DNA from: Chryseolinea sp. H1M3-3
GTDB lineage: Bacteria; Bacteroidota; Bacteroidia; Cytophagales; Cyclobacteriaceae
NCBI RefSeq assembly: GCF_029360725.1
Contig: NZ_JARKMY010000010.1
Span: 454,305-518,304 of the forward strand
Direction of reading: 5' to 3'
DNA length: 64,000 bases
This document shows, piece by piece, positions 9,154 through 35,294 of the stretch. The position numbers were made by a program, and so were the translations under genes. Numbering within the stretch: position 1 is the stretch's first letter; each line of letters begins with the position of its first letter. The notes under the pieces were generated by a model that was not told the origin of the DNA, did not search any database, and worked only from the letters and a program-made list of their open reading frames with translations.

Positions 9154-11290
9154 AGTTAACTGATATTTTGACGATTACTTCGGTACCCAACGCATTTCCT
9201 TCAGGAGAAACGAGATCATTGATTGTGACCCCGAGTCCATTACCATTCATCATAGCAATGCGGTCGGCCGTGATTTTGGAGCCTAAGGACTTTTTGCGAA
9301 TACCGTATGGGTTGCTAATCATCGCTGATTTATTCCGGCCGACACCATCGTCGGTGATTCTAAAAAATAAATAACCATTCTCTTCACACACATTTATTTC
9401 TAAATGGCCTTTTTCTTCCTTATGGGTCAATCCATGCCAGATTGCATTTTCAGCGTAAGGTTGAATAATTAAAGGAGGAACCTTCAACGCGAAAACATCC
9501 AGGTCGGCCGGCAGCGTAATCTTATACTCGAACCTGTTTTCAAGACGCAACGCTTCCAGTTCGAGATATAACTCCAACGACTCCAATTCGCTCTCCAGTG
9601 ATATCATCGACACCTGCGCATTCTGCAAAATTAACCGTACCAGTTTGGAAAATTTAATAAGATATTCCGAGGCCTGCTCACTGTTGTTTTGTAAAATGAA
9701 CCGGTTGATAGAGTTCAATGAATTGAAAATAAAGTGCGGATTCATCTGAGCGCGAAGTGCCTGCATTTCAAGTTCGGCTGCCTTCTGCTGAAATTCCGCC
9801 TTTGTTCGTGCATTCTCAAATGTTTGCATTTTTAATTCGTTTTCAGCCAACTCACGCTGGTGTTTTTCAGATCTTCTTTTCAGCAAAATATTCCGGAACA
9901 CGATCAGTCCCATTCCCAGAAGAAAAATGATGCAAACAATTAGAAAATATTTTTGAAGTGAGTACTGATTCAATTGCATTTCCTGCAATTGCTTTTCTTT
10001 CGTTAACCTAACGATACCTGCCTGGGCTTTTTCAGTCTCAATCTCCGATCTGAAGAATGCCAGTTTTTGTTCGGCCTGATCTGCATCAATTGTATCCTTT
10101 AAAGCAGTGTATCTTCTCAGATGGTGATAGGCGCTGTCATTTTTTTGTTGCGTATCAAAGAGCTTATAAAGCATAAAATGTGCATCGCGGACATATTGCC
10201 TGGCTCCCGTTTCATTCGCAAGACGCAAAAGTTTGTAAGCGCTTTGCAAAGCTGTTGAACTATTTTTCTTTCCCTCGTGGGCCTTTACAAGTCTGAGCAG
10301 CGTCCACATTACCTGGTTTCGGTCTGTTACACTTTCAAAATAAATCAGCGCATTGCTCAAATACTGTATGGCTAAATCATATTGTTCCCGCGCAATATAT
10401 ATTTCGGCCATCCGTGAGTTTGGCCAGCTGTTTTGTTTGAATTCTTCCGTCATCCCTGAAACCGATGTCATTTTTTTATTGTGATTGCGCAAAAGTTCGT
10501 AGCAGAAAATCGCAGAATCATATTGTTTCAATAAATAAAAGGTTTCACCGATGTAGGTATACATTCGCAATACACCGCCACGGGCTTTAACAATGTTATG
10601 CGCCTCCCTGCAGTACTCGAGCGCAGTCTTATGATCACCCGCAGAATTATAAAGAATTGCTATTGCGATAAATCCCCTGGGATCACTACTGGGCTTCCGC
10701 CATAACGGGAGTCCTTTCATACAATATTCGATCGAACTTTTATACTGGCCTCTTTCAGTTTCCACAGCACCCATGGCAGCATATAGTAAACCAAGTAAGT
10801 TGTTATCGCCAATTTTAAGGGCAAGTTTTTCTGCATTCTTATAACTTGCCAAGGCCTCGTCAAAACTACCCTGCGCCCACTTTGCAAGACCCAGCAGTTC
10901 GTACGATTTTGCCAATTGGAATTTCTCCTGATCCCTTATTCCTTCTAGCAAGGCAACAGCCTTAGCGCAGTATTTCTCCATCGCTGGATAAGTCCCTACA
11001 ATTCGTTCATTCAATCCCAAATTGTAATAAGCCACTGCTTTTCCCTTTGTGAAGTTTATTCTTTCAGCTTCCAAAATTGCTTTGGATGCAAACAGCACGG
11101 CGCTGTCGGTGTGGATTTCTATGTATGAACGACAGAGTTCGTTCAGACCATTAACAAGGCTGGTATCTTTTAAGGTAGGCAGAAGTTTTTTTAAACCATC
11201 GATCTTTTCACGCTGCCCCAAACACTCAACACAGAGCGGAACCTGAATGATGAACAGGACCAGGTATTTTGCAAGCGTCTTTTTATTCAT
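9146..11290 (-). CDS. LytS/YehU-type sensor histidine kinase with TPR sensor
   Basis: 714 residues: signal peptide (ending near VECLGQ), a long tetratricopeptide region (about 35-400) as a periplasmic sensor, one transmembrane helix (YFLIVCIIFLLGMGLIVF), a coiled coil, then a His_kinase domain. The phospho-acceptor motif is QMNPHFIFNSLN (H519), and an HATPase domain with DDGVGRN ends the protein. The layout is the common Bacteroidota TPR-LytS type. It is first in a two-gene operon with the LytTR regulator. The ligand is unknown; TPRs suggest a protein partner. Confidence 0.92.
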   Translation of the reverse strand: MNKKTLAKYLVLFIIQVPLCVECLGQREKIDGLKKLLPTLKDTSLVNGLNELCRSYIEIHTDSAVLFASKAILEAERINFTKGKAVAYYNLGLNERIVGTYPAMEKYCAKAVALLEGIRDQEKFQLAKSYELLGLAKWAQGSFDEALASYKNAEKLALKIGDNNLLGLLYAAMGAVETERGQYKSSIEYCMKGLPLWRKPSSDPRGFIAIAILYNSAGDHKTALEYCREAHNIVKARGGVLRMYTYIGETFYLLKQYDSAIFCYELLRNHNKKMTSVSGMTEEFKQNSWPNSRMAEIYIAREQYDLAIQYLSNALIYFESVTDRNQVMWTLLRLVKAHEGKKNSSTALQSAYKLLRLANETGARQYVRDAHFMLYKLFDTQQKNDSAYHHLRRYTALKDTIDADQAEQKLAFFRSEIETEKAQAGIVRLTKEKQLQEMQLNQYSLQKYFLIVCIIFLLGMGLIVFRNILLKRRSEKHQRELAENELKMQTFENARTKAEFQQKAAELEMQALRAQMNPHFIFNSLNSINRFILQNNSEQASEYLIKFSKLVRLILQNAQVSMISLESELESLELYLELEALRLENRFEYKITLPADLDVFALKVPPLIIQPYAENAIWHGLTHKEEKGHLEINVCEENGYLFFRITDDGVGRNKSAMISNPYGIRKKSLGSKITADRIAMMNGNGLGVTINDLVSPEGNALGTEVIVKISVNYD

Positions 11291-15303: not shown

Positions 15304-16037
15304 TTAAAGCAAATGCTCCTCAACAAAAACTCCTTTGGCAATTTCTTCCATCTCAGTATAGGTAGCTTTATATAGAAGTCCCGCCATACTGATACGCTTC
15401 ACACCACAAACAGTTAGGGATGAAATAGAAGTGAACTTCGATATGCCTATCACGTTTACTGGCAAGGAAGTAGCTGTAACTATTTCTTTAACAACATCGG
15501 TGCTTTGTATTCCGGTTACGAAAAGCCCATCGGCACCTGCATCTTCATACATTCTTGCCCTTTTTATGGTTGTCTCAAGAGGTGACGGAAGATTTAATAA
15601 AAAAGCATCTGTTCTGGCGTTGATAAATAATTTCTGCCGGGTTTTGTCAAGATAGTTTTTTATACAAAACAGTTTGTTAAGATAAACCTCTTCGCCTTCA
15701 GTGTCTTCGATGTTTATGCCCACTACACCAAGGTCAATTATTTTTTGTATGTACGCTTTTAACGTTTCTAAATCTTGTGTGTAACCTCTTTCAATATCCA
15801 CCGATAAGGGGATGTTAATACCGACTTAATCCTCTTGACAACGTATAGAAGTTCTTCAAAAGAAATTTGTTGCCCATCTTTATAGCCAAGAGAATCCGCG
15901 ATCGCTCCGCTAGAGGTAGCCACTGCGTGATACCCCACCTTCTCGATTATTTGAGCGCTTTTAACATTCCACGAATTAGCAATCAATAATGGTTCAGGTT
16001 GGTGATGCAATTCGTAAAAGTTATCGAAGTGGTTCAT
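15304..16037 (-). pseudogene. Isocitrate lyase/PEP mutase-family gene broken by a single-base frameshift
   Basis: The N-terminal part (from ATG at 16037) encodes LLIANSWNVKSAQIIEKVGY and continues in frame to about 15806. The rest of the enzyme is then in another frame, resuming at DIERGY and including GVVGINIED. Both motifs belong to the isocitrate lyase/PEP phosphonomutase superfamily, which makes or breaks C-C or C-P bonds using Mg2+. Adding one base in the region 15806-15812 (for example reading AAC-ATC-CCC-TTA-TCG) fuses the halves into a normal enzyme of about 245 residues. The lesion may be a real recent mutation or a sequencing error; the downstream part is otherwise intact. Confidence 0.8.
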
Positions 16038-16324
16038 ACCATTATTATTTTAAAGAATCATTCAATCACTTGTGGATCGGTATTCAGCGAAGGTAATTTT
16101 GTGTTAGCCGGAAATGCTTTATCGACACAAAAATATTGTCCATATATGACTTCGTGGGGGTGTGGCCTGGACTTTATGAATGGTCATTTTAGACAATCTT
16201 TTCCAGAACGTTTGAATTTTTAGCTATACAGTTGCCGTGATCGGTTAACCCACAGCGGCTTAATGGCTAGTGTCACCGTTCCACTTATTTCTAAAACATT
16301 GCATATCAAAAAGCGATTACATCA

Positions 16325-16718
16325 ATGTTGGCTCAGCAAACTGAAGCCATACAAAACGAGGATGATACCATACGCCTGCAGGTTGTAAAGGATGGCTACC
16401 TAAACTATAGATTACTGCAAATCAGAAAATCTTTATTCCCCCCGGTATCCATCGAGCACGTCGTGGGACGCGTCAAAATCAACAGGCATCATTTCCGAAT
16501 TTGAATACGAAACAATTGAAGCGTGTGAAGGGGCATATGCGTCGCAACGGATGATAAATGGCAGTACCTTGCCGAAGATTATTGAGGATCTGTTTGCCCT
16601 AGATCCATCACAGATAGATCAGAAGCTAGTAAAACTTCGGCTGAAGTTTGTAGAGATGAGTGAGCAGGAGAAGACCTTACAGCAGCTATTAGAAGAAGCA
16701 ATTAAGAAGACACGATGA
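16325..16718 (+). pseudogene. Possible frameshifted small gene (two overlapping-frame fragments)
   Basis: Fragment 1 (ATG 16325 to TGA 16504, 59 residues, beginning MLAQQTEAIQNEDD) is followed in the next frame by coding-like sequence. That second frame reads SEFEYETIEACEGAYASQ from about 16494, then MINGSTLPKIIEDL from the ATG at 16551, and stops at 16718. The second half ends in a charged helix (VEMSEQEKTLQQLLEEAIKK). Amino-acid composition looks like real coding DNA across both parts, so one gene of about 125 residues may have lost a base near 16470-16500. The family is not recognised. Alternatively only the 55-residue ORF from 16551 is real. Confidence 0.35.
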
Positions 16719-16867
16719 TATATCAAGTATCTAAATGGACAAATATCACCCTTGGACAACGCACGTTGCTATCTTGGATTGATGTCAAAAAAAGTTACGT
16801 GGCGCCGGCAACTATCTTCGGTTAATTCATCAATAATTTTTTCTTGTTTTAATATATGACATTTTTT

Positions 16868-17035
16868 CAGGTTTTATCAAAGAACCTGACTCTAGCTAAG
16901 GGTTGGTTATACGGTGGCTATACTGTCAGTATACTCCAGCCAACTTCACCCTTACCGGGGGCTGCCTATAAGCATGTCAGCACCCTTTATTATGAACGTA
17001 GCCAGCCTGGAAATTAATACGTGCACGAATAGATG
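16868..17035 (+). repeat. Structured leader-like element, copy A
   Basis: It contains an inverted repeat CAGGTT-N9-AACCTG (16868-16888), then AC, 27 nt, then CTATACTGTCAGTATACT (16918-16935). The core of the last segment is a 7+1+7 palindrome (TATACTG-T-CAGTATA). Spacings match copy B at 62490-62615 exactly. A looser match, TGGAAATTAAT versus TGGATATTAAT, and an ATG (17033) lie downstream in both. Only a 16-codon ORF follows that ATG here. It could be a regulated leader, a small RNA or a mobile-element end. Confidence 0.55.
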
Positions 17036-17422
17036 AGCACCCTCAAAGAAGCTGTTCCAGCAAGTGAATTATTTCAAAGGTGAAGACCTGTGACATCGTA
17101 AGGCGACCGAGAGTTATTGTTGCACTAGGTTTTATTTTGACACTCAGGGCTTAGTGTCGTTCGTAGCTTTTTTATAGTACAGGGTCAGAAATAGTGCCTT
17201 AATGATAGCGGTTCAGGCCTGCGATGTTCAAGCGTAATTTTTTTATTTAATTGAGTGGATTTCAAGCTCGTTTATCTCGCTGTTTTCCTATCGCTCGGGG
17301 ATTGTTCACCGGTGCGAGCAAAAACAAAGTACCGAAGGCAAAGAATTGGCATTTAGTTCACTATCGTTATTCTTTGTAAGTACTAAATTGAGTAAACTTG
17401 AAATAAAGCACTGAAAGATTTT

Positions 17423-17917
17423 ATGGACCTCCAAAAACTCATCACACGTCTCCTCAAATACAACCTTTGGGCTAACGAACGTCTAACTGCGTGGTTGTTG
17501 ACACAACACCCAAGCCTCCTTTATGAGAAGACAGGCTCAAGCTTTGGAACAATTGCTCACACGCTGCAACATATTCTATCAGGACAAAACTATTGGCATG
17601 GTATTATCGCCAAGGGGCAAATCAAAGAATACAATCAGCCCGTAGGAGAGAATGCCGCAGCGCAAATCATATCTGATCTTATTGTAAGCTCCCAACAATT
17701 GATCGACGACTTGTCAACATTAAATGACCAGCAATTAACTGAAAATATTCAGGCTTCTGACAGCAAGCAAAGTCGATACGAATATATTCTGCACGTGGTG
17801 AATCATGGTTCTTACCACCGCGGTCAGGTTGTTACCATGTGTCGTGCTTTGTCAATAAAAGAAGAAATTCCTGTAACCGACTATGATGGGTACCTTTGGT
17901 GGATAGAGAACATGTGA
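17423..17917 (+). CDS. DinB-family metal-binding protein
   Basis: 164 residues with the DinB/YfiT four-helix pattern. The N-terminal LLKYNLWANERL is followed by a metal-binding histidine triad at H50 (TLQHILSGQ), H128 and H132 (VNHGSYHRGQ). Members are putative metal-dependent hydrolases or thiol-S-transferase-like enzymes induced by damage or stress in some bacteria. The specific substrate is unknown. It is monocistronic and convergent with the kinase gene at 17962. Confidence 0.9.
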   Translation: MDLQKLITRLLKYNLWANERLTAWLLTQHPSLLYEKTGSSFGTIAHTLQHILSGQNYWHGIIAKGQIKEYNQPVGENAAAQIISDLIVSSQQLIDDLSTLNDQQLTENIQASDSKQSRYEYILHVVNHGSYHRGQVVTMCRALSIKEEIPVTDYDGYLWWIENM

Positions 17918-17961: not shown

Positions 17962-19287
17962 TTATAAATGCTTAACGGGGACATAAATATCAAACGTTGC
18001 TTCTTCATTCAAAGTGCCAGTTGCCGTGATAATCCCGTGGTGATTTTCAACAATTCGTTTACAGATAGCAAGGCCAATACCGGTGCCGGGATATTCCTCC
18101 TGACTATGAAGACGCTGAAACATTTCAAAGATGCGTTCATTGTACTCTGGTTCGAAGCCAATACCGTTGTCGATATAAGTAAGGTGACAGTAGTCCAATT
18201 TAGGTGATAGTCTCCCCGCCGGCAAGGTGGGATTTTCGTTAAATAATTTTCTACCTCGAACGACTCTAGACGTTATAATAATGTGAAGTGTCTTTTGGGG
18301 GTTTGAGAATTTCAATGAGTTGCTAATCAGGTTATAAAAAAGCTGGTAAAATTGAAACCGGATAATGCTGACTTTGCAAAGTTTAGTAGATTCTAATACA
18401 GCTTTCTTCTCCAGTAATTCTTCTTCAAAGTAATTCTGTACTTCATCTAAAACTGTCGTGAGATCTACCGTTTCAAATTTGTGTTTATCGTTCTTTGTGC
18501 GTGAGTAAGACAGCAAATCAAGTATTAGCCCCTGCATTCTTTTGGCCGTCTCATGGATTTTTTGCAAGTAGGTTTTACCCTGATAGGACAAGTTTTCGCT
18601 TTCTTCTCTGAGCATGAAGTTGACGAAATTCTGAATTTTACGCAGTGGTTCCTGCAAATCGTGACTCGATACATGCGTGAAAGAAGTTAGATCCTTGTTT
18701 GCAATCTCAAGTTCAATATTTTTTTGTTGCAATTGTTTTGCCCTGTGTTTTAATTCTTCCTGGTTTTTATTTTGGACAGTTAAATCTGTAAGAATAATAC
18801 TTAACATAAAAGTATTATCCAACAACAATGGATTTGAAGACATAAGGACTGGTATAGTCTTGTCCGCACTACTGTGCAGGTAGATTTCTTCTTTTATCGG
18901 ATGCTCACTGCATTGTTGAAACATGGTGTCAAAACGACCCTTCGAATGATCATCAATAAACGTATTGAATTTTGTTCCTATTACCTTTTGTAGTGGTTGA
19001 TTCACCAGGTTTGCGAAGTAAGAATTGGCGTATAAAATCGTTCCATCTTTATCAAGCGTGATTGCACCTTCATGCATTTTCTCAATTAAAATTCTGTAGA
19101 TTTTGTCAGCGTTTTTTTCAGTATAGACCTTAAGTCTTTCTTCACCAGCAATTACTAAGGCATCAATATCTTCTTTTTTAATAGCCTCAATGGATTTTAT
19201 TGCCTCCTTTAGCTTTCGTTTGAGCGCAGTATTTTCCTGAGTTAACTTTTCAATTTCGCCGATAGATTTTTTACCGCGTACACTCAT
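17962..19287 (-). CDS. PAS-domain sensor histidine kinase of the kaiBC operon
   Basis: 441 residues, no membrane segment, so cytoplasmic. An N-terminal coiled coil (about 10-45) leads into the KEDIDALVI and ADKIYRILIEKMHEGA motifs seen before PAS domains of many kinases. The PAS domain covers about 75-170 and is followed by a second coiled coil. HisKA has SSHDLQEPLRKI (H209); HATPase has N-box NLISNSLKF, DNGIGF and GTGIGLAICK. It starts 18 bp after kaiB and is last in the operon receiver-kaiC-kaiB-kinase. Inference: it passes a signal to or from the KaiBC unit, analogous in position but not in sequence to SasA. Confidence 0.92.
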   Translation of the reverse strand: MSVRGKKSIGEIEKLTQENTALKRKLKEAIKSIEAIKKEDIDALVIAGEERLKVYTEKNADKIYRILIEKMHEGAITLDKDGTILYANSYFANLVNQPLQKVIGTKFNTFIDDHSKGRFDTMFQQCSEHPIKEEIYLHSSADKTIPVLMSSNPLLLDNTFMLSIILTDLTVQNKNQEELKHRAKQLQQKNIELEIANKDLTSFTHVSSHDLQEPLRKIQNFVNFMLREESENLSYQGKTYLQKIHETAKRMQGLILDLLSYSRTKNDKHKFETVDLTTVLDEVQNYFEEELLEKKAVLESTKLCKVSIIRFQFYQLFYNLISNSLKFSNPQKTLHIIITSRVVRGRKLFNENPTLPAGRLSPKLDYCHLTYIDNGIGFEPEYNERIFEMFQRLHSQEEYPGTGIGLAICKRIVENHHGIITATGTLNEEATFDIYVPVKHL

Positions 19288-19305
19288 GTATTTAAAGCGA
19301 AGTAA

Positions 19306-19632
19306 TTAAACCAGATTAAGACCTGCCAGAACCTTTTCAGTATTCGACAGATCTCCAACAAGCCTACCTTCCGGCCGTGGAAATTTTCTTATCAAGAGCG
19401 GTATAGCTATGATGTCTTCTTTGACAGCCAAATATGGTTGTTGGTAAATATCGATTACTTCCAACTCATATCTTCCTTTCAGGTGCTTCTCACAGATTGC
19501 TTTTATGTTTATAATTGCCCGTTTGGAGTTGGGTAAAATGCCTGCAACGAACAATTGAAGTATATACTTTTCTCCCTGAGCATCTTTTGCTTTTTTCTTA
19601 ACCTTTTTGTTTTGGGCTAACTTTTTTAACAT
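19306..19632 (-). CDS. kaiB: Circadian clock protein KaiB homologue
   Basis: 108 residues, close to the roughly 100-residue KaiB length, with a Lys-rich N-terminal extension. The thioredoxin-like KaiB core is clear: YILQLFVAG, then SKRAIINIKAICE, YELEVIDIYQQP, and the proline-rich IIAIPLLIRKFPRPEGRLVGDLS with the terminal LNLV. KaiB binds the KaiC CI ring and is a fold-switching protein in cyanobacteria. It lies between kaiC (79 bp upstream) and a kinase gene (18 bp downstream). No KaiA is present, as expected outside cyanobacteria, so a self-sustained clock is not implied. Confidence 0.95.
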   Translation of the reverse strand: MLKKLAQNKKVKKKAKDAQGEKYILQLFVAGILPNSKRAIINIKAICEKHLKGRYELEVIDIYQQPYLAVKEDIIAIPLLIRKFPRPEGRLVGDLSNTEKVLAGLNLV

Positions 19633-19711
19633 GGTGATTAGCTTATTCTGCGCATAAAAGATTCAGTGGTTTAAATTGTATTGTGTTTTTTTTCGGCATG
19701 CTACGCCGATT

Positions 19712-21190
19712 CTATTCTTCAGAAGTTCCTGAAGCCTCACGCTCCTTACCTTGACGTTCAGAAATTTGTTTTAGTGCAATTCCGAAATCTGAAATAATTA
19801 AATGCTTTACCATTTTAGAATGTCCCATACCTCTTGACTTCATCACTGTGCAGGTTCGTTTGCGTTCACCATCAGATTCGGCATCCTGAACCATGATCCA
19901 GGTGTCAACCATAGATGAAATTCCTTCGTCGCTCGGATTCCTTTCTATTAACTTCTCCGTTATCGCGGCAGTAAAAATGACGGTTATCTGCTCGCCCTTT
20001 AAGTAGTCTACAAACCTCGTAAGCATTAGCCTTACACCACTATTTGGTCCCTCAGTCATTAAATTTGTAATCGGGTCAAGAATAACTGCAGCAGGTTTGA
20101 TTTTTTTTATTTTATTCTTAATAGAAATAAAGTGCAATTCAAGATTTTGTAACGTAGGACGTGAGGAGTAAAAAAGCAATCGACCAGACTTAACCAAAGG
20201 TTCTAAATTGATCCCGATGGATCGCATATTTCTGATCACCTGGTTGGGGGCTTCTTCAAAGGCACAATAAAGACATTGCACATTTTCTTTACAAACATCA
20301 AATGCAAAAGAGGCTGCAATACTCGTTTTACCTGTGCCCGCCGTGCCTGATATCAGGACGCTGCTTCCTGCATAATAACCTCTCTTACCAAGCATTTCGT
20401 TTAAATCTGGAATGCCTGTTGAGATTATTTTTGAACTTATTTTACTCCGAATCGGCTCGGCAATAATCGGAAATACCGTCACCCCTTTTTCATCGATAAC
20501 AAAAGGATATTCATTGTTGCCATGCTCCGACCCCCTGTATTTAACAACCCGTAGGCGCCGGGTTGTAACCTGGTCCTTTACGCGATTATCCAATACGATG
20601 ACGCAGTCGGCTACGTATTCCTCCAAACCATGGCGGGTAAGAAACGCATCCCCAATTTCTGCGGTAATTATTGCAGTTACGTTCTTTTCTTTTAACCAGG
20701 AAAAAAGTCTTTTAAATTCTGAACGCAGAATCTTGTAATCAAAGGCGTAAAAAAGCGTATCTAACGAATCAAGCACTACGCGCTTAGCTTTTACCTTTTT
20801 TATCGCTTGTTCAAGTCTTACAAATAATCCTTCTATATCATACTTACCAGTCTCCACTATCTCATCCCTGCTGAGGCTGACATGCTCCAGGTATATTTTA
20901 TTTTCCGCAAGATGGGTCTTTAGATTATACCCTAAAGATTTTACGTTCATCTCTAGTTCATCGGTCTTCTCTTCAAATGCCATGAAAACGCCAGGCTCTT
21001 TAAACATGGTAATTCCATTCACAATGAATTCCATAGCAAGAATTGTTTTGCCACATCCGGTGTTGCCTAGCAAAAGCGTGGGACGGTTTTTCGGTAGGCC
21101 TCCTGTTGTAATATCATCGAGGCCTTCAATGCCCGTTGGTGACTTTGGAAATTTAAATTTTGGTGCTTTTAATTTGTTACCTTTTAGCAT
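19712..21190 (-). CDS. kaiC: KaiC-type double RecA ATPase
   Basis: 492 residues with two RecA/KaiC domains. CI has Walker A GNTGCGKT (42-49) and the catalytic Glu pair in AFEEKTDE. CII has Walker A GTAGTGKT (282-289) and AFEEAPNQ. The CII segment EGISSMVDT aligns with the autophosphorylation site of cyanobacterial KaiC (S431-T432), giving S425-S426, so Ser replaces Thr. The KSRGMGHSKM motif and a short charged tail follow. KaiC forms hexamers that hydrolyse ATP and may autophosphorylate. It is preceded by a receiver gene (30 bp) and followed by kaiB. The identity is firm; its role as timer or stress regulator here is inference. Confidence 0.96.
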   Translation of the reverse strand: MLKGNKLKAPKFKFPKSPTGIEGLDDITTGGLPKNRPTLLLGNTGCGKTILAMEFIVNGITMFKEPGVFMAFEEKTDELEMNVKSLGYNLKTHLAENKIYLEHVSLSRDEIVETGKYDIEGLFVRLEQAIKKVKAKRVVLDSLDTLFYAFDYKILRSEFKRLFSWLKEKNVTAIITAEIGDAFLTRHGLEEYVADCVIVLDNRVKDQVTTRRLRVVKYRGSEHGNNEYPFVIDEKGVTVFPIIAEPIRSKISSKIISTGIPDLNEMLGKRGYYAGSSVLISGTAGTGKTSIAASFAFDVCKENVQCLYCAFEEAPNQVIRNMRSIGINLEPLVKSGRLLFYSSRPTLQNLELHFISIKNKIKKIKPAAVILDPITNLMTEGPNSGVRLMLTRFVDYLKGEQITVIFTAAITEKLIERNPSDEGISSMVDTWIMVQDAESDGERKRTCTVMKSRGMGHSKMVKHLIISDFGIALKQISERQGKEREASGTSEE

Positions 21191-21220
21191 AAGGTCAATA
21201 TATTTTTAGTATTGGTAAAG

Positions 21221-21667
21221 CTACACTTCCAGCAAAGAAAGAATAAACTTCTTCCTGGCAGGACGGTCAAACTTGTTTTTGATAATGCGTGTAAGGACGA
21301 ATTGAATTAATTTGGCAAGCTCATCAATTCCTGTTTTTCGAATATAATAGTGTGCACCACTTGCGTACAACATATCGGCCACGTCGTCATGCACATAAGT
21401 AGAATACATAATGACCGGAAGTGCTTTTAATTCAGGACTTGATTTTATTTCTGTGAGACATTCAAAACCGTTTTTGCGCGGCATGTTGTAATCAAGGAAG
21501 AGAACATCAGGAAGCTTCGCGGAATTTTCAAAAAGATAAGCCATCAATTTGGCCCCATCGTCGACCATCGTCAGTCGAGTTGGAATTGATAAGGATTCAA
21601 CCGCTTTATCGAAGAAGTACCGGTCGTCCCGGTCGTCATCAGCAAGTAAAATATGGACGGGGATCAT
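21221..21667 (-). CDS. Single-domain response regulator upstream of kaiC
   Basis: About 148 residues from the ATG at 21665-21667 (start MIPVHILLADDD); a longer frame to 21721 would need a TTG start and adds residues foreign to the family. Receiver features are D10/D11/D12, phospho-acceptor D59 in FLDYNMP, and YIRKTG. A short basic C-terminal helix follows but no DNA-binding domain, so it acts by protein contact. First gene of the receiver-kaiC-kaiB-kinase operon. CheY-like receivers of this stand-alone kind commonly pair with PAS kinases such as that at 17962. Confidence 0.9.
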   Translation of the reverse strand: MIPVHILLADDDRDDRYFFDKAVESLSIPTRLTMVDDGAKLMAYLFENSAKLPDVLFLDYNMPRKNGFECLTEIKSSPELKALPVIMYSTYVHDDVADMLYASGAHYYIRKTGIDELAKLIQFVLTRIIKNKFDRPARKKFILSLLEV

Positions 21668-21837
21668 TGATAGTGGTGTTTCATAACGTTTAAGCCAATA
21701 GGGGGGAGCAACAACAAGCAAAGCGACATTAAATATACAAATTAATCACGGGATCACGGTAAGTTTTGCTCAGACGGGGTGGTTTCTGCTTACGACGAAA
21801 GAAAGCCTAACTTTCACTTTTATGATAATAGCACCAC

Positions 21838-21875
21838 TGTACTTCGAACGAAGTTATTTGTACTTCAAGTTGAAG
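21838..21875. promoter_or_regulatory. Two phased dyads upstream of the kaiC operon
   Basis: Two inverted repeats both begin TGTACTTC and start 21 bp apart (21838 and 21859). The first contains ACTTCG-AA-CGAAGT (21841-21854) and the second CTTCAA-G-TTGAAG (21863-21875). They sit in the 314-bp gap between the two signalling operons, about 170 bp before the receiver start. The spacing of about two helical turns suggests a dimeric regulator site; no binder is known. Confidence 0.4.
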
Positions 21876-21981
21876 AAGGCTATCCCGCGTACTGGGGCGC
21901 TTGAGAAGAGTTGCAATAAACATTCAAAGTTGTCACACGGTTATGAAAGGCGCACCAAAGCATGCCCTTGTCAGCATTCAC

Positions 21982-22377
21982 CTAAACGATGTAAGACAAA
22001 AATTTGTGAATGAGTATTTTGCCGTCAGCATAAGTGCTGGGTTTTACGAGATAGTCTATGGCTCCCAAACTGAGGCATTTTCTTTTTTCGCTCTCGTTAG
22101 TAGATGTAGAAAAAATAATCACAGGGATATGTTTGAACCGAACGTCTCGTTTAATATGAAGCAATGTTTGCGTTCCGTTTAATAAAGGCATATTGAGGTC
22201 CAATACGATTAAATTCGGAAGGGAAATGACATTAAGTAATTCCAGGTAATCAATTAATTCCTTACCATTCAACATAAATTTAACATTCTCTTGCTGTCCC
22301 ACTTCAGTGAAGTAATCAAGCAGGATCATGTGATCTTCCAGGTCATCATCTACGACCAAAATTTGATACGGCGCCAT
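21982..22377 (-). CDS. Single-domain response regulator of the stressosome operon
   Basis: 131 residues forming one receiver: D10/D11/D12, phospho-acceptor D60 in VLDLNMP, and YLVKPS. No output domain is present. It starts one base after the stop of the upstream kinase gene and is the last gene of the rsbR-rsbS-rsbT-phosphatase-kinase-receiver operon. Inference: it accepts phosphate from the H331 kinase and acts by protein contact. Confidence 0.92.
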   Translation of the reverse strand: MAPYQILVVDDDLEDHMILLDYFTEVGQQENVKFMLNGKELIDYLELLNVISLPNLIVLDLNMPLLNGTQTLLHIKRDVRFKHIPVIIFSTSTNESEKRKCLSLGAIDYLVKPSTYADGKILIHKFLSYIV

Positions 22378-22378
22378 A

Positions 22379-24022
22379 CTAATCTCGTTGAATATCTTGC
22401 GTTAAAGGAAAGGTGATTTTAAAAATCGCATACTCACCTAATATTGATTCTGCATTAATGGATGCATTGTGAAGTTCAGCAATCTTTTTGCAGATTGATA
22501 AACCAATACCTGTTCCCGGAAACCTGTCGCGCGTATGCAGTCGTTCAAACAGTCCAAAGATTTTTTCTTTGTACTCGTCTTCAAAACCGATACCATTGTC
22601 TTTTACTGTTATTGAAACGTTTTCTGTGTCTGCAACTAAGCTAACTCGAATATGAGGGGGTACATCAGGCTTACGATATTTTAACGAATTAGAAATTAAG
22701 TTCACAAATAATTGGCGGAGCCGTAATGGATTTCCCATAACAGTACTCAGTTTATCAATCTCCACGACTCCTTTGCTTTCCTGAATCCTGTAATCCATGT
22801 CCTGCAGCACTTCACCCATCAACATATTTAAATCCACCTGCTCGAATAAAAGATGTTGATTTTGGAGCTGAGAATAACTCAATAAATCCGTTATCAACTC
22901 CTTCATTCGTTCTGCAGCTTTAACAATATTACTTAATGTCGCGTGTCCCGCGTCTCCAAGGCTTGATGAATACCTTCGATTAAGTGTATCGGAATAGAAA
23001 AATAATTTTCTTAATGGTTCCTGAAGATCATGTGAGGCAAGATGTGCAAATTGTTCAAGTTCATAGTTACTGCGGTTTAACGCAATAATTTTCTCCTGGA
23101 GTTCCTTTTGATTTTCAAATAACTGCTCTTGTGTCGCTTTGAGTTCACGATTATCTTTTAACGTTACCTCTATAAGTTTCTGAGCATCGACATCCACTAT
23201 AAAGCCGATCCATTGTGTGATAATTTGCCTTTCATCCTTCAATGGAACAACAGAAATCATATGCCACAGAAATTTGCCAGACGCTTTTTCCCGAAATCTG
23301 TATTGGCCATTGAACGAAGTTTGTTGCGCGTATGCATTGTTCAGATTCTTTGCAAACACCGTATAGTCGTGTGGATGAAGGAAGTTTTTCCAACTTAAGC
23401 TTGTTAATTGATCCGGCATCTGACCTAAAAAATTCACCAGCCACTGATTGCTATATTTTACAACCCCAGCGTTATTTGCGGAGAACATCATCAATGGAAG
23501 CGAATCGGTCAGCACCCTAAAATCATTTTCACTTTTCTGAACTTTTTCGGCCAGATCCTGCAGTAATAAATTTTTTCTCCGTAATTCGTCATACGGTGAC
23601 AGTGGGGGCTCAAGTTTAAAATATTTAACGAATGAGTCCAGGCTTTTCTCTGTTACAACCCGCGGAAGACTCAATCGCTGCTTTAGAACAACTTGCGCCT
23701 GCTTTACCGACACGGTGACTTCGACATCGCCCACCAGGCGTTTTGCATATTGGCATGCTTCAACGCATTCGCGGGTGAAATCTTTTTTATCGCGTATAAT
23801 TGCGTGTAAAAACTGTTTAGCATTAGCCACATGAATACACAAGACGAGTTCTGCATTTTTTCCATGTTCAATCGCGCAACGAGCGATCTCAGAAACCGCT
23901 GTTGCTACGGAAGTCTGAGTTATAAGAGAAAAGCCGATTAGCTCACATAATTTCATTGCCCGTTTATGGGCAAGAATTAAGTCCATTTCGTTTTCAAGTT
24001 TTACGCAGACAATCTCCTTCAT
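22379..24022 (-). CDS. Histidine kinase with degenerate RsbT-like N-terminal domain
   Basis: 547 residues, cytoplasmic. Residues 1-130 resemble the RsbT/RsbW ATPase fold (QTSVATAVSEIARCAIEHG aligns with QTKIITAASELARNML of the neighbouring RsbT-like protein). However, the DxGPGI nucleotide-binding motif is missing; IIRDKKDF stands there. A PAS domain follows (about 170-290), then a coiled coil, HisKA with ASHDLQEPLRKL (H331), and an intact HATPase with NLISNSLKY, DNGIGF and GTGIGLSICKK. It starts 4 bp after the SpoIIE-type gene. The N-terminal domain may bind the stressosome core or an STAS partner without catalysis, so this protein could be the bridge between partner switching and phosphorelay. 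Confidence 0.9.
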   Translation of the reverse strand: MKEIVCVKLENEMDLILAHKRAMKLCELIGFSLITQTSVATAVSEIARCAIEHGKNAELVLCIHVANAKQFLHAIIRDKKDFTRECVEACQYAKRLVGDVEVTVSVKQAQVVLKQRLSLPRVVTEKSLDSFVKYFKLEPPLSPYDELRRKNLLLQDLAEKVQKSENDFRVLTDSLPLMMFSANNAGVVKYSNQWLVNFLGQMPDQLTSLSWKNFLHPHDYTVFAKNLNNAYAQQTSFNGQYRFREKASGKFLWHMISVVPLKDERQIITQWIGFIVDVDAQKLIEVTLKDNRELKATQEQLFENQKELQEKIIALNRSNYELEQFAHLASHDLQEPLRKLFFYSDTLNRRYSSSLGDAGHATLSNIVKAAERMKELITDLLSYSQLQNQHLLFEQVDLNMLMGEVLQDMDYRIQESKGVVEIDKLSTVMGNPLRLRQLFVNLISNSLKYRKPDVPPHIRVSLVADTENVSITVKDNGIGFEDEYKEKIFGLFERLHTRDRFPGTGIGLSICKKIAELHNASINAESILGEYAIFKITFPLTQDIQRD

Positions 24023-24026
24023 ACTA

Positions 24027-25043
24027 TCATTTTACGCTTAATATCAAGATGGACGAATCGTCATTTCCCCGAGTAAAATCCCGATAGATCGCTGCAGCAA
24101 GAATCATTGTATTATACTTCAGTATCGCCGGATATTTGGCAAGGTCCCACCTTGTTTGAAGTCCATCTGAACACATAATCAATCGTTGATTCCGTTCTAC
24201 AGGAAAGATGGAGGGGCTCATTGAATGAGGTAGGTTGTGTCCAATTGTTCCATTGTATGGCAGATAATTTTTATAATTCAGTGCAGTATACAATCGGGTA
24301 AAAATATTTCCGACGCCGCAAATGCTCCACTCACTTGTTTGACGGTTGAAAACAGCAATTGTTCCGACAAGACCCCTGGTCCGTCTCACCTTCTCATGCA
24401 TCTGCCGGATCATGTCAACAGGATCATCGTCTTCCGAGGCGAAAAAAAAGTCGCCGGCCAGCTCGACTGCTTCTTTCGCATATTTTCCATGACCAAGACC
24501 GTCACCAAAGAATACTTTAACGCCAGACAAAGTTTCTTTTATTCTATAACCATCCCCACAAACTTCCTCACGCGGCTTGTTTATAAAAAGGTCACTCCAC
24601 TCAAAAAGTCTTTTTTTTATGGGCAAGCTTTTGTCACCCTCTGATCTTACGGATGCATATAAGATTGTTCCGGTACCTACCAAGGTATACAACTCTACGT
24701 CGTCGCTTAATCGATGAATGGCCCCCAGGCCCTGGCCAAGTGTTTTTGTTGTTGAAACACCATCCTTCATCATGCCGATTTTGTCTACGATGCCCGGCCC
24801 TTTATCCAGACTGATGATCTCAAACTTTCGATCATTTTCATTGATATCTGTTACCCTGTACAGCAACTCACCACTTCCCGCATGCTTGACAAGGTTCGAA
24901 CAAATTTCCGACACAACGATGTCGATTGCTGCGACCTTATTTTCCTTAAAATGTCTTTTTACTACCTGCTGATGAATCTCTCGCTTTATATAGGCAACAT
25001 AACTTCGTTCCTCAATTTGGTAGCTAGTAAAGGTCTTATCCAT
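24027..25043 (-). CDS. SpoIIE/RsbX-type PP2C phosphatase with N-terminal anti-sigma-like ATPase domain
   Basis: 338 residues in two domains. Residues 1-135 form an RsbT/RsbW-like HATPase with VVSEICSNLVKHA, LDKGPGI and TLGQGLGAIHRL. Residues 150-338 form a PP2C/SpoIIE phosphatase with metal-binding acidic motifs GDGLGHG, CSDGLQTRWD and GNDDSSILIL. It would dephosphorylate STAS proteins such as the RsbS- and RsbR-like neighbours, resetting the stressosome. Its start overlaps the rsbT-like gene by 8 bp. The fusion of ATPase and phosphatase in one chain differs from free-standing Bacillus RsbX. Confidence 0.92.
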   Translation of the reverse strand: MDKTFTSYQIEERSYVAYIKREIHQQVVKRHFKENKVAAIDIVVSEICSNLVKHAGSGELLYRVTDINENDRKFEIISLDKGPGIVDKIGMMKDGVSTTKTLGQGLGAIHRLSDDVELYTLVGTGTILYASVRSEGDKSLPIKKRLFEWSDLFINKPREEVCGDGYRIKETLSGVKVFFGDGLGHGKYAKEAVELAGDFFFASEDDDPVDMIRQMHEKVRRTRGLVGTIAVFNRQTSEWSICGVGNIFTRLYTALNYKNYLPYNGTIGHNLPHSMSPSIFPVERNQRLIMCSDGLQTRWDLAKYPAILKYNTMILAAAIYRDFTRGNDDSSILILSVK

Positions 25044-25464
25044 TTTTCCATTTGATCACGGTAACTGTTGTACCCTTACCCACTTCTGATTCAATATTAA
25101 ATTCGCTGACAAGTCTTTTCGTACCGGGGAGGCCAAGTCCAAGGCTTTTTGCTGTGGAGTATCCATCCTTCATAGCCATTGGTATATTAGCTATTCCAGG
25201 GCCTTGATCCTTAAATGTCAAGCGAATACCATTTTCCCTACCGGTGCTGATGACTTCCAGCGTGACTTTACCGCCTTTAGCGTACTTCAACATGTTTCGT
25301 GCAAGCTCGCTGGCGGCCGTAATTATTTTTGTTTGATTGACGAGACCCATTCCAATCTTCACGGCATGTTCTTTCAGGCGGTTACGGAACGGTATAACAT
25401 CCACCTCCCTCACAATTGTCATTAATTCTTTATTCAGCACTACCATCATCCGATCCGTCGACAT
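25036..25464 (-). CDS. RsbT-like serine kinase/anti-sigma-type ATPase
   Basis: 142 residues with the GHKL ATPase of the RsbT family: N-box ASELARNMLKYA, G1 DQGPGI and G2 KSLGLGLPG, with a terminal strand TTVTVIKW. In Bacillus, RsbT phosphorylates RsbS and RsbR and, when released, activates a downstream phosphatase. The frame overlaps the end of the rsbS-like gene by 35 bp; a later Met (position 6 or 7) is possible as start and would still overlap. No sigma-B is in view, so the target of released RsbT is probably a protein of this cluster. Confidence 0.92.
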   Translation of the reverse strand: MSTDRMMVVLNKELMTIVREVDVIPFRNRLKEHAVKIGMGLVNQTKIITAASELARNMLKYAKGGKVTLEVISTGRENGIRLTFKDQGPGIANIPMAMKDGYSTAKSLGLGLPGTKRLVSEFNIESEVGKGTTVTVIKWKNG

Positions 25465-25831
25465 TGCGCTCCATATTGGTCAATTTACTGCGCAACAGCT
25501 CCATCCCTTTTTCGACATTAAGTGCGCTGAATACTCCAGACAAGGGTAGTCCTAGCTCTACCAATGTTATTGCCACTGCTGGCTGCATTCCAACAACAAC
25601 CGTTTCGGCATCTAAAATCTTTGACATCGCCGCAATGTTTCCAATAATCCTCCCCATGAAAGAGTCGATGATGCTGACGGCTGATATATCGATGAGTACA
25701 CCGCGGGCGCCTGTTTTATTGATCATTTGGACAAGATCTGCTTCAAGAGATTCGGCGAGTCGATCGTATAAATCAACTTGAATGGTAACCAAAAGCAAAC
25801 GGCCCATCCTTAAAATTGGGATCTTTTCCAT
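25430..25831 (-). CDS. RsbS-like STAS protein (stressosome scaffold)
   Basis: 133 residues of single STAS domain. The conserved segment VLIDISAVSIIDSFMGRIIG places S57 at the Bacillus RsbS phosphorylation site (Ser59), and VVGMQPAVAITLVELGL is nearly the RsbS signature. An acidic tail (VDGSDDGSAE) is extra. RsbS and RsbR form the stressosome shell that sequesters RsbT. It lies 9 bp after the rsbR-like gene and overlaps the rsbT-like gene. Confidence 0.94.
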   Translation of the reverse strand: MEKIPILRMGRLLLVTIQVDLYDRLAESLEADLVQMINKTGARGVLIDISAVSIIDSFMGRIIGNIAAMSKILDAETVVVGMQPAVAITLVELGLPLSGVFSALNVEKGMELLRSKLTNMERNVDGSDDGSAE

Positions 25832-25840
25832 TTCACAAAA

Positions 25841-26701
25841 TCAATTAAGATTGGTTACGTTTTTTCTTGTCACCTGTAATTGCAGCATGGTGAAAGCGGT
25901 TTTTAAAGCACTCGCCAATGTTGATTTTGTTAAGATGTTACTCAGATCAATGCCTAGATGCACGACGGTCTGCGCAATTTCCGGTCTAATACCGCTGATA
26001 ATACATTCAGCGCCCATGAGCCGGGTTGCACTCACCGTCTTGATCAAGTGTTGCGCTACAAGGGAGTCTACAGCGGGAACTCCGGATATGTCGAGAATAG
26101 CAATGCTGCTTCCCGTTTCCACTATTTTTTGCAAAAGATTTTCCATGACAACCTGGGTCCTTGCGCTATCAAGTGTTCCGATAATAGGCAATGCAAGGAT
26201 ACCATCCCAAACTTGAATTACTGGCGTTGAAATTTCAGTGATCTCATCTGTTTGTCTTAGAATTACATCTTCGCGCCCCCTAAGAAAAGTTTCGAATGTA
26301 TCAATGCTGAAGCTGTCTATAAGCTTACCGATCTTTATACTTTGCATGTACAATTCTTGTGGATCTTTGATTTCCTGTTGAAGAATTTCGAGCAATGCAT
26401 TTTTAAGGCTAAAGATATAATTTCCAGTTTCACGAGGGCTGAACCCCTGCTTTGCGCGAGAAATGGATACAGACGCTAAAATATCATTCACCTGCTCAAA
26501 GCCCATACTCTTCGCATCCTCGATATTATTATCGTTTAGATTAGAAGTTAACGCACTAAGCAATTCTTCCGATTGTGATCGCAAGTCATCGTTACTCATC
26601 AGGTCCTCGCGCAGGCCTTCATCTAAAAGTTGAAATTTCATCCACGATTCAAGAATAGCCTTGTTTTTCTTTTGCAATATCCTGATAGCCTCGTTTTTCA
26701 T
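25841..26701 (-). CDS. RsbR-like stressosome protein (RsbT co-antagonist)
   Basis: 286 residues. An N-terminal helical RsbRD-type sensor domain (about 1-145) with FSPRETGNYIFSLKNALLEI is followed by a C-terminal STAS domain (about 160-275) with LDISGVPAVDSLVAQHLIK and RPEIAQTVVHLGI. S213 takes the place of Bacillus RsbR Thr171, and T245 matches Thr205. The N-terminal domain is not a globin, so the input signal is unknown. First gene of the operon; a TAnnTTTG element lies about 32 bp upstream. Confidence 0.94.
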   Translation of the reverse strand: MKNEAIRILQKKNKAILESWMKFQLLDEGLREDLMSNDDLRSQSEELLSALTSNLNDNNIEDAKSMGFEQVNDILASVSISRAKQGFSPRETGNYIFSLKNALLEILQQEIKDPQELYMQSIKIGKLIDSFSIDTFETFLRGREDVILRQTDEITEISTPVIQVWDGILALPIIGTLDSARTQVVMENLLQKIVETGSSIAILDISGVPAVDSLVAQHLIKTVSATRLMGAECIISGIRPEIAQTVVHLGIDLSNILTKSTLASALKTAFTMLQLQVTRKNVTNLN

Positions 26702-27223: not shown

Positions 27224-27691
27224 CTACAAGAAAATTCCTAAAACTGTTCCGTAGATCACGTGCGCCAAGCATGTCGCAATCGGTGTACCCTTCCCATAGT
27301 TCAATGCAAGGAAACCAGGCGGTTCAAGTTGTCTAGTTGGCGTAGGGCCTTGAAATGGACGAGCCATCCGCGGATGAAAAGAACTTAATATTTGTAACCC
27401 AGATGTGAGAACGAAAGCCGTGTGTACAAATCCAATCCCTAAACCAAACCACCATGTGTGCAAATCGGCGATATTAAAGGCAAGACCATAAATAAATGCA
27501 AAAATCCACCCCATGATTATATGCGACAGAAATCCAATCCTGACCGCTTTATCCCTGCTACCAGTGAATATTGTTCCGAGCATAAATGGCAAATCGATTC
27601 GCGTAAGTCCGAGATATTTCGAACTCACCATGATGGTTGTCAGTATTACCGTGGCAGCGAATCCCCATAGTATCACTTCATTAACATTCAT
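27224..27691 (-). CDS. Multi-pass membrane protein of unknown function
   Basis: 155 residues with about four hydrophobic helices: VILWGFAATVILTTIMVS, IGFLSHIIMGWIFAFIYGL, TWWFGLGIGFVHTAFVLTS and a C-terminal ATCLAHVIYGTVLGIFL. His residues in three helices are conserved-looking and might bind metal or haem, but no family is claimed. Its ATG overlaps the TGA of the GH15 gene (ATGA, 27688-27691), so translation was coupled to that gene when intact. Confidence 0.7.
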   Translation of the reverse strand: MNVNEVILWGFAATVILTTIMVSSKYLGLTRIDLPFMLGTIFTGSRDKAVRIGFLSHIIMGWIFAFIYGLAFNIADLHTWWFGLGIGFVHTAFVLTSGLQILSSFHPRMARPFQGPTPTRQLEPPGFLALNYGKGTPIATCLAHVIYGTVLGIFL

Positions 27692-29546
27692 ATTACTGAG
27701 CTTGGTGCTTTTCCTTTTTCATTTGTGCTTCCCTTTTGAAACGCTTCATTGATGGTAAGCGCAGCATTGATCAACCCAATATGCGTCAAGCCTTGTGGAT
27801 AATTCCCGAGAAGATTTCCGGACACAGGTTCAATCTCTTCTGAGAACAGACCGGTAGGGCTTGCGTGGCTCAGCATCGTTTCGAACACATTAACCGCCTT
27901 TTCTAGCTGCCCCGATTTCGCAAAATTTTCAGCCAGCCAATAACTGCAAACGCCGAATGCCCCTTCCCTGCCATCTACGCCGTCGCTGACATCGCGATAT
28001 CGATAGATCAGACCATTCTCACACAAATTGCGATAAATCATCTCGGTCGTTGAAATCATCCTCTCACTTGCCGCATCGCAGTAGCCTACTAAAGAAAAAA
28101 TTAAAACACTTGCGTCCAATGAACTGCCGCTTAACGCTCGCGTATAAGTTTTTAATTCACTATTGTAACCGTAGTGTTCAACAACGTCCCGGATCCGTTC
28201 GGATGTTTCTTTGAATTTTTTCAAAGGTGCTTTATTCCATTGATACATATTGCAAAGTTTAAGGAGGCGATCGAGACCCAGCCAGGCCATCACTTTGGAA
28301 TGTGTATGATGAACACATGTTGACCGGACTTCCCAGATTCCATTATCAGGCTTATCCCAGGTTTCACATATCACTTCACCGAGGCCAATCAGAAACTTTT
28401 TTGTTTCCTTGTCAAACCTTTCAACGTATGGCGCATACGTATAAACCGCGTCAAGCACTTCTCCATACACATCAAGCTGGAATTGACTGTCGGCTCCATT
28501 GCCGATACGAACAGGCCGGGACGCCGCGTAGCCAGACAACCAGGGAAGGGTGTCTTCCTTGATCGACGCTTGCCCGAAAACCGAGTACACCACCTGCAGC
28601 TTTGGACGAGTTAATCCGGTAGCATGCAATATCCAGTTCATGTAGGCATGGGTTTCCTCTTCGAAACCCAAATTGAGTAGACCCGTGTCGTAAATGATGC
28701 ATCTCGTAGCCAGCAATACCGGTAGTCCCAATTCCTTTCTCCACCTGGTTCTTCAGGTAACGATGTTGTTGGAGCAGCAATGATGGCTCCGGATGGGGCG
28801 TACGTCAATAGCTTAAGCGCCAATGCACTTCGCTTTACTTCATCAGCATAAAGACCAGTGTAGTTGCACTTCTGAATCCAAGACTGCCAAAATGCAATGG
28901 TAGTTTTCATTCGTTTCAAACCATTAAGCTTGAGTTCAGGCAGGATCGCCGGACACTGGCTTGAATAGCTTAATGAAAAAATAACCCGATGATTGGAGGG
29001 CACATAAAATTCAGCGACAACTTTACCGTCCGAATAATTTACCTGAACCGCTTCCGGCTCAAGCGTGCTAAGGAGTGTATGAATATTCTCTTTCCACGAG
29101 AACTGAATTCCAAGCCTTTTATGATCCTCCAGAACAGCAATATCTTTTCCGTAAAACTTTCTGGGAACACATTCCAGTTTCATCTTAACGTTTCCCTTTA
29201 TTCCCTCGACCACCCGGAGAATTTCATGATCAGGAAAAAGGGTATGCGATTTTTCCTCTTCTGACATTGCCGTAAAAGCATCCATCAGACGAACCTCTCC
29301 TTCGTCATTTATAAAATGTGTTTCTAAAACATTCGTGTCCCGTATATAATTTTGAGTCGACTGATAAGGCGCAGTGGGCGAGACAGAAAAATGCCCACCT
29401 TTTTGCCGGTCTAAAATTGCAGCGAATATACTGGGCGAATCAAATTCCGGCAGACAGCACCAATCAATTGAGCCATGCTTTGAAACTAATGCGGCTGAAC
29501 GACAGTTCCCAATAAGGGCATAATCCGATATTTTAAGTTCTATCAT
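27688..29546 (-). pseudogene. GH15 glucoamylase/trehalase-like gene with single-base frameshift
   Basis: The N-terminal half (from 29546) reads IGNCRSAALVSKHGSIDWCCLP at its start and reaches GGERNWDYRYCWLRDASFT, the (alpha/alpha)6 active-site region of GH15. The frame is then lost near 28678-28685. The C-terminal half continues in the next frame as LLNLGFEEETHAYMNW, with PDNGIWEVR (general acid Glu region) and GLFSEEIEP (general base). Restoring one base (CGG-GCT-CTA-CTC-AAT) gives a full protein of about 619 residues, the normal length. Substrates in this family are starch, isomaltose or trehalose. Either a fresh null mutation or an assembly error; the remainder looks under selection. Confidence 0.88.
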
Positions 29547-35291: not shown

Positions 35292-35294
35292 ATC

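Follow-up and report, generated by a model that had tools for sequence, protein, structure and literature searches.

The window, a 64,000-nucleotide stretch of the Chryseolinea sp. H1M3-3 genome, carries two neighboring minus-strand operons. The upper one is a tightly packed rsb operon of six genes, which encode RsbR, RsbS, RsbT, a phosphatase in which an RsbT-like domain is joined to an RsbX-type part, a histidine kinase and a receiver; the lower one is a kai operon of four genes, encoding a receiver, KaiC, KaiB and a PAS histidine kinase. Profile comparisons and a predicted structure indicate that the N-terminal domain of the rsb-operon histidine kinase is derived from RsbT, and the motifs for binding adenosine triphosphate (ATP) are missing from it. 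With limited confidence we lean toward a reading in which the two operons are independent and the RsbT fold serves as a docking tag that would couple the histidine kinase and the phosphatase to the stressosome.

The N-terminal domain of the rsb-operon histidine kinase

The histidine kinase of the rsb operon is 547 amino acids long, and no Pfam match was obtained for its residues 1–147. Among 18 homologues of this domain, HATPase_c_2 was matched in nine and HATPase_c in nine. The comparison of the domain profile with the neighboring RsbT proteins using hhalign gave 99.1%, and the eight window-like domains alone gave 96.5% against the RsbT profile. The AlphaFold model, computed from an 18-row alignment, had a predicted local distance difference test score (pLDDT) of 91.3 and was nearest to RsbW and SpoIIAB, followed by SiaB and LvrC, while ordinary histidine kinase ATPase domains scored well below. 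By family homology and predicted fold, residues 1–147 are RsbT-derived, which gives a content to the kinase N terminus (residues 1–130) that the first-pass annotation had singled out for interaction experiments.

The window domain has a cysteine in place of the N-box asparagine, and neither DxGxG nor a G2 box; as it is without ATP-binding boxes, it is therefore named pseudo-RsbT. The frequency of this loss was determined from motif counts made without an alignment, because one alignment placed a gap at the G1 aspartate that the profile alignment retains. After sequences with equal cores had been removed, 90 of 98 kinase N-domains, 87 of 96 RsbT proteins and 91 of 98 phosphatases were distinct. 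Of the 90 kinase N-domains, 17 have the N-box asparagine, 10 have DxGxG and a single one has the G2 box, as compared to retention of the motifs in 87 of 87 RsbT proteins and in 89–90 of the 91 phosphatase kinase domains. Judged from these motifs, the ATP site is lost from most Bacteroidota copies of the kinase N-domain examined. The first two helices of the domain keep residues in common with RsbT, and the stretch between the domain and the following helix contains a conserved S-x-Y-D-E motif. The median ratio of nonsynonymous to synonymous substitution rates (dN/dS) was 0.084 for the N-domain and 0.085 for the kinase core, which points to purifying selection of equal strength on both.

The stressosome core and the fused phosphatase

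The three proteins encoded upstream have the features of a stressosome core, which are a variable N-domain with STAS in RsbR, a phosphoacceptor serine in RsbS and the ATP motifs in RsbT. Ser213 and Thr245 of RsbR align with the two phosphoacceptor threonines of solved RsbR, so that one of them is serine instead of threonine, and the best PDB sequence match of RsbS was RsbS 6qcm (E 1.4e-32), with the DSF motif aligned. In Pfam searches RsbT matched HATPase_c, the phosphatase HATPase_c_2 and SpoIIE, and the kinase PAS, HisKA and HATPase_c, in addition to RsbRD_N and STAS in RsbR, STAS in RsbS and the receiver domain in the last protein. The 338-amino-acid phosphatase consists of an RsbT-like kinase domain followed by an RsbX-type phosphatase. 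Its SpoIIE match of 21.4 bits is below the Pfam cut-off of 25, and the assignment is nevertheless supported because the C-terminal part matched PDB entries 3zt9 (E 5e-15), which we take to be a Moorella-type protein, and RsbX 3w40 (E 9e-9). Three PDB chains were matched up to E 1 and none of them is named RsbU, which suggests an RsbX-type rather than an RsbU-type enzyme. The first-pass annotation had recognized the SpoIIE-type part of this protein, to which the N-terminal RsbT-like kinase domain has to be added. The order rsbR-rsbS-rsbT-phosphatase-kinase recurs in all 17 other loci of the family that match the kinase, and the rsb operon is therefore not a chance arrangement.

RsbU_N, the known receptor of RsbT, was not detected in the window's own genome, nor above the cut-off in any of the 35 genomes carrying the kinase; hence, the protein through which the canonical RsbT-RsbU-RsbV-RsbW-SigB output would start was not found. 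The histidine kinase and its receiver, and not a sigma factor, would serve as the output, as the first-pass annotation supposed; its description of an rsb module that has no sigma-B branch in the operon and adjoins a histidine kinase and receiver is supported. Its remark that no RsbV or RsbW is in view holds for the window, but on another contig of the genome (G000:C1:915372-918268, equal to L229:6373-9269) a 686-amino-acid protein that looks SpoIIE-like by eye stands beside a STAS protein and an HATPase_c_2 protein, in an RsbU/V/W-like set.

Relatives of the kinase fusion in other bacteria

A contig scan matched 285 relatives, and the 80 best of them, bearing Bacteroidota names in their titles, were used as collection loci; 7 of the 80 duplicate loci of the family. 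Outside Bacteroidota, five of 102 matching records were examined, all plasmid relatives: two from Paraburkholderia, two from Deinococcus, one of which is D. radiodurans MP1, and one from Phaeobacter. In these five records the gene after rsbT encodes a protein of 330–351 amino acids whose N-domain is RsbT-like and which three of the five annotate as SpoIIE phosphatase; a kinase gene comes next, and the N-domain of that kinase is also RsbT-like and has all three ATP motifs in each case. Because the fusion is carried by these Paraburkholderia, Deinococcus and Phaeobacter plasmids, the sequences indicate that it is old or widely shared, and that the predicted pseudokinase state of the window copy has intact relatives. 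The intact and decayed kinase N-domains thereby form an apparent series from kinase to pseudokinase. Some loci are multiplied: in Sediminibacterium roseum two tandem rsbR-S-T sets precede one phosphatase and kinase, and Flavobacterium hungaricum has two complete rsb modules about 21 kb apart.

Adjacency and co-occurrence of the rsb and kai modules

The kai operon encodes a double-domain KaiC with two P-loops together with KaiB, as expected for a KaiBC module, and Pfam matched its products to a receiver, KaiC, KaiB, and PAS, HisKA and HATPase_c. KaiC was closest to PDB 8db3/8dba (E 6e-143), presumably Rhodobacter structures, and its Ser425-Ser426 are at what we take to be the place of the phosphosite pair.

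Adjacency of the two modules was surveyed in 196 genomes of the family, 199 Flavobacterium genomes and 295 genomes of the class, as well as in the 80 collection loci. Among the family genomes 18 matched the N terminus of the rsb kinase, 8 had KaiB, and 2 had both, namely the window genome, where the modules are side by side, and G177, where they are on different contigs. No kai gene was found at the 17 other family rsb loci, and no rsb gene at the 7 other family kai loci (one locus per KaiB genome). Within the genus itself, the rsb kinase occurs without KaiB in G093, and KaiB without the rsb kinase in G015 and G163. In 30 further kai loci, drawn from Flavobacterium and from the class sample, the 9–20 kb fetched contained no rsb genes, and some of these stretches were limited by contig edges (8,992 bases in the shortest case). 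In the class sample KaiB exceeded the cut-off in 13 of 295 genomes, of which the window's own genome and F. limi (G458, with the coordinates of G197) were already known and ten were fetched; the fetched set did not include G440 (38.6 bits, a 264-amino-acid frame), three genomes below the threshold or the second KaiB site in G423. The kinase N-domain profile matched 16 of these 295 genomes, from which the four above 100 bits were counted, while the 12 weaker matches, none with KaiB and mostly in RsbT-sized frames, were dropped.

The exception was found in two of the 80 collection loci, those of Flavobacterium fluviatile and F. limi, where a kaiC-kaiB-kaiB-kinase-receiver cluster is divergent from rsbR, with 323 and 383 bp, respectively, between the kaiC and rsbR reading-frame starts. 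Because this Kai layout differs from that of the window, the adjacency seems to have arisen twice. Conserved Rsb-Kai adjacency as a general feature was rejected, given its presence in 1 of 196 family genomes and its absence from the 30 further kai loci, with the two Flavobacterium species as the exception.

Co-occurrence gave a different picture in different groups. In Flavobacterium KaiB was present in 12 of 15 genomes with the rsb kinase vs 9 of 184 without it (Fisher p 2e-11), and in the class sample in 3 of 4 genomes with strong kinase matches vs 10 of 291 (p 2.6e-4; F. limi is counted in both samples), while in the window's own family the values were 2 of 18 vs 6 of 178 (Fisher p 0.16); the Flavobacterium test is uncorrected for kinship and genome size, and the other two are likewise uncorrected. 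In the 12 Flavobacterium genomes with both modules, the distance between them was about 5, 5, 30, 30–50, 67, 74 and 103 kb, and 1.07 Mb, and four had them on different contigs. Shared ancestry and genome size may explain this co-occurrence. We conclude that bacteria of the same kinds often keep both modules, and that the two do not make up a single conserved unit. The kai operon, with its genes for KaiC, KaiB, a kinase and a receiver, is a module of its own, and its position beside rsb is lineage-specific.

Possible mechanism and alternative explanations

If the RsbT fold acts as a docking tag, RsbR and RsbS would form a core that holds RsbT, and the pseudo-RsbT domain of the histidine kinase would bind the unphosphorylated STAS domains of RsbS and RsbR. 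Upon stress, RsbT would phosphorylate RsbS and the tag would be released, and the resulting change could be transmitted by the helix to the PAS domain and the histidine kinase domains, which would alter the phosphorylation state of the adjoining receiver. The RsbX part of the phosphatase, docked through its own RsbT-like domain, would then reset RsbS and RsbR. A more general form of this proposal, which we offer tentatively as a possibility, is that the three copies of the RsbT fold (the free switch, the phosphatase-fused and the kinase-fused copy) share docking sites on stressosomes at large, the output copy having decayed to an adaptor pseudokinase in most Bacteroidota. If true, stressosomes in Bacteroidota, Deinococcota and Proteobacteria would have a route to two-component systems for which no RsbU-type receptor is required. 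Several observations weigh against the docking proposal or the independence of the operons. A shared RsbT fold is no proof that the docking face is retained; the sequence profile of the kinase N-domain gave nothing significant against solved structures (best SpoIIAB, E 0.09), and the AlphaFold alignment includes motif-intact members, which may have guided the model. RsbT is under tighter constraint (median dN/dS 0.048) than the pseudo-RsbT domain. A quick tree placed the kinase N-domains (support 97), the phosphatase N-domains (99) and RsbT (just 58) in separate groups, and it was built from 39 of 98 sets with long-branch warnings. One of the 35 kinase genomes has a sub-threshold RsbU_N match (E 4.9e-4), and RsbT might reach the second SpoIIE-like/STAS/HATPase set by an unspecified route. 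The adjacency and co-occurrence in Flavobacterium leave some room for a link between Rsb and Kai.

The pseudo-RsbT domain could instead pair with RsbT itself rather than with the RsbR-RsbS core, so that stress-released RsbT would bind and activate the kinase. GHKL switch kinases dimerise, the fold of the kinase N-domain is the same as that of RsbW and SpoIIAB, and the S-x-Y-D-E stretch between the domain and the helix is conserved. This pairing would keep the classical order, in which RsbT leaves and binds its target: in B. subtilis, as described in excerpts of the sources, RsbS holds RsbT in the stressosome until RsbS phosphorylation releases it (PMC7522486), and the released RsbT binds RsbU, orders its coiled-coil linker and activates it (PMC12143880). 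The five plasmid relatives retain the catalytic motifs, which is more easily read as action on STAS partners, and we consider such pairing unlikely. It is also improbable that the Rsb and Kai modules are one functional island exchanging signals via their kinases and receivers, as the first-pass annotation proposed. In its favor are the adjacency that seemingly arose twice and the frequent co-occurrence in Flavobacterium, with 7 of 12 pairs within about 103 kb. Those statistics are uncorrected for relatedness and genome size, however, the two adjacencies differ in layout and orientation, the family and the further kai loci do not repeat the arrangement, and 14 of the 16 flanking window reading frames were unmatched in the relatives' loci, the other two being weakly matched. 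The island is thus unsupported, and the search for conserved adjacency that the annotation had suggested came close to the outcome named there as its refutation, adjacency in this genome alone, with only the two differently arranged Flavobacterium species as exception. Least probable, to the point of being hardly credible, is that the kinase N-domain is a functionless relic and the kinase is driven by its PAS domain alone. The loss of catalytic motifs from most Bacteroidota copies examined and the weaker constraint relative to RsbT would fit a relic, but the N-domain is as constrained as the kinase core, its helix residues are retained, and it adjoins rsbRST in every locus with enough sequence.

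Gene map and other features of the window

All ten genes are open on the minus strand between 17962 and 26701 (Table 1). The reading frames bore out the genes, their order and the spacings given in the first-pass annotation, which are overlaps of 35 bp (rsbS/rsbT) and 8 bp (rsbT/phosphatase) and gaps of 4 bp (phosphatase/kinase) and 1 bp (kinase/receiver); its domain assignments were supported by the Pfam and PDB comparisons. For the kai-operon receiver, the ATG at 21667 is a likelier start than the TTG at 21721. The two operons are separated by 314 bp, in which no terminator-like site was found when signs of read-through or of a common promoter were sought. A Bacteroidota-type promoter pattern had no match near either operon, and its three matches in the window equal the number in shuffled sequences.

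Table 1. Genes and domains of the rsb and kai operons in the window
Feature	Position	Strand	Remarks
rsbR	25841..26701	-	RsbRD_N + STAS; Ser213, Thr245 at phosphoacceptor positions (T171/T205 type)
rsbS	25430..25831	-	STAS; Ser57 = S59-type phosphoacceptor
rsbT	25036..25464	-	Serine kinase; N, G1 and G2 boxes intact
RsbX-type SpoIIE/PP2C phosphatase	24027..25043	-	N-terminal RsbT-like kinase domain fused, motifs intact
Histidine kinase	22379..24022	-	Pseudo-RsbT domain + helix + PAS + HisKA (His331) + HATPase_c
Pseudo-RsbT domain of histidine kinase, residues 1–147	23582..24022	-	Cys49 replaces N-box Asn; no DxGxG, no G2 box
Single-domain receiver, presumed partner of rsb-operon kinase	21982..22377	-	
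Single-domain receiver of kai operon	21221..21667	-	ATG start
kaiC	19712..21190	-	Two KaiC domains; P-loops at residues 42 and 282
kaiB	19306..19632	-	
PAS histidine kinase of kai operon	17962..19287	-	

Elsewhere in the window, two reading frames overlap in different frames at 27688-29546 (minus strand); one of 347 amino acids matches glycoside hydrolase family 15, the other has 302, and a split by frameshift is possible. Short reading frames of 165 and 89 amino acids at 15304-17423 appear by eye to be pieces of one broken enzyme gene, and the approximately 1.4 kb after them contain no reading frame of at least 80 amino acids. At 34347-50909 (minus strand) a 5204-amino-acid reading frame, perhaps for a giant secreted or gliding-type protein, precedes a PorP/SprF protein of type IX secretion. 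A LytS-type TPR histidine kinase lies beside a 246-amino-acid reading frame at 8413-11290 (minus strand), and weak relatives occur in the vicinity of four rsb loci in Flavobacterium and of one kai locus.

Comparison with known systems

The kai operon resembles the KaiBC-only systems of the Rhodobacter sphaeroides type in its nearest KaiC structures and in the adjoining genes for KaiB and a histidine kinase, and differs in its shorter KaiC (492 amino acids vs 568 in 8dba) and in opening with a receiver gene. Excerpts of PMC5520375 state that the R. sphaeroides kaiBC operon includes a histidine kinase, and that a group of Bacteroidetes has solely KaiB2/KaiC2-like proteins.

The rsb operon is similar to the Gram-negative RSTX modules of the Vibrio type, in which, according to excerpts of PMC9237108, rsbR-rsbS-rsbT-rsbX is followed by signalling proteins including histidine kinases and receivers, with no sigma-B, and which are listed for Bacteroidetes among other carriers. 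The phosphatase of those modules is described as a single-domain RsbX-type protein, whereas here the phosphatase and the kinase are each fused to an RsbT-like domain. The same excerpts report that the downstream proteins come with or without RsbU_N, suggest phosphorylation by RsbT for kinases without it, and state that V. vulnificus RsbT was not found to interact with D1, the downstream protein. The way in which histidine kinases are driven by stressosomes lacking both sigma-B and RsbU_N outputs is presented as unsettled in that work (PMC9237108). Neither an RsbT-histidine kinase fusion nor an Rsb-Kai link was found in the titles, abstracts and excerpts surveyed from the openly licensed PubMed Central (PMC) literature, and an earlier notice in print is possible.

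The kinase N-domain shares its predicted fold with the anti-sigma kinases RsbW and SpoIIAB, from which it differs by the absence of ATP motifs, by fusion to a histidine kinase and by an operon that contains no sigma factor. A closer parallel in architecture is offered by the RsbU_N-fused histidine kinases and diguanylate cyclases of some Proteobacteria and Moorella, which in excerpts of PMC12143880 likewise have an N-terminal coupling domain and a helical linker. In those fusions the output protein bears the receptor of RsbT, while here it bears a copy of RsbT itself; a dead RsbT domain on a kinase would be a direct physical link, and a sequence handle by which stressosome outputs could be recognized in genomes.

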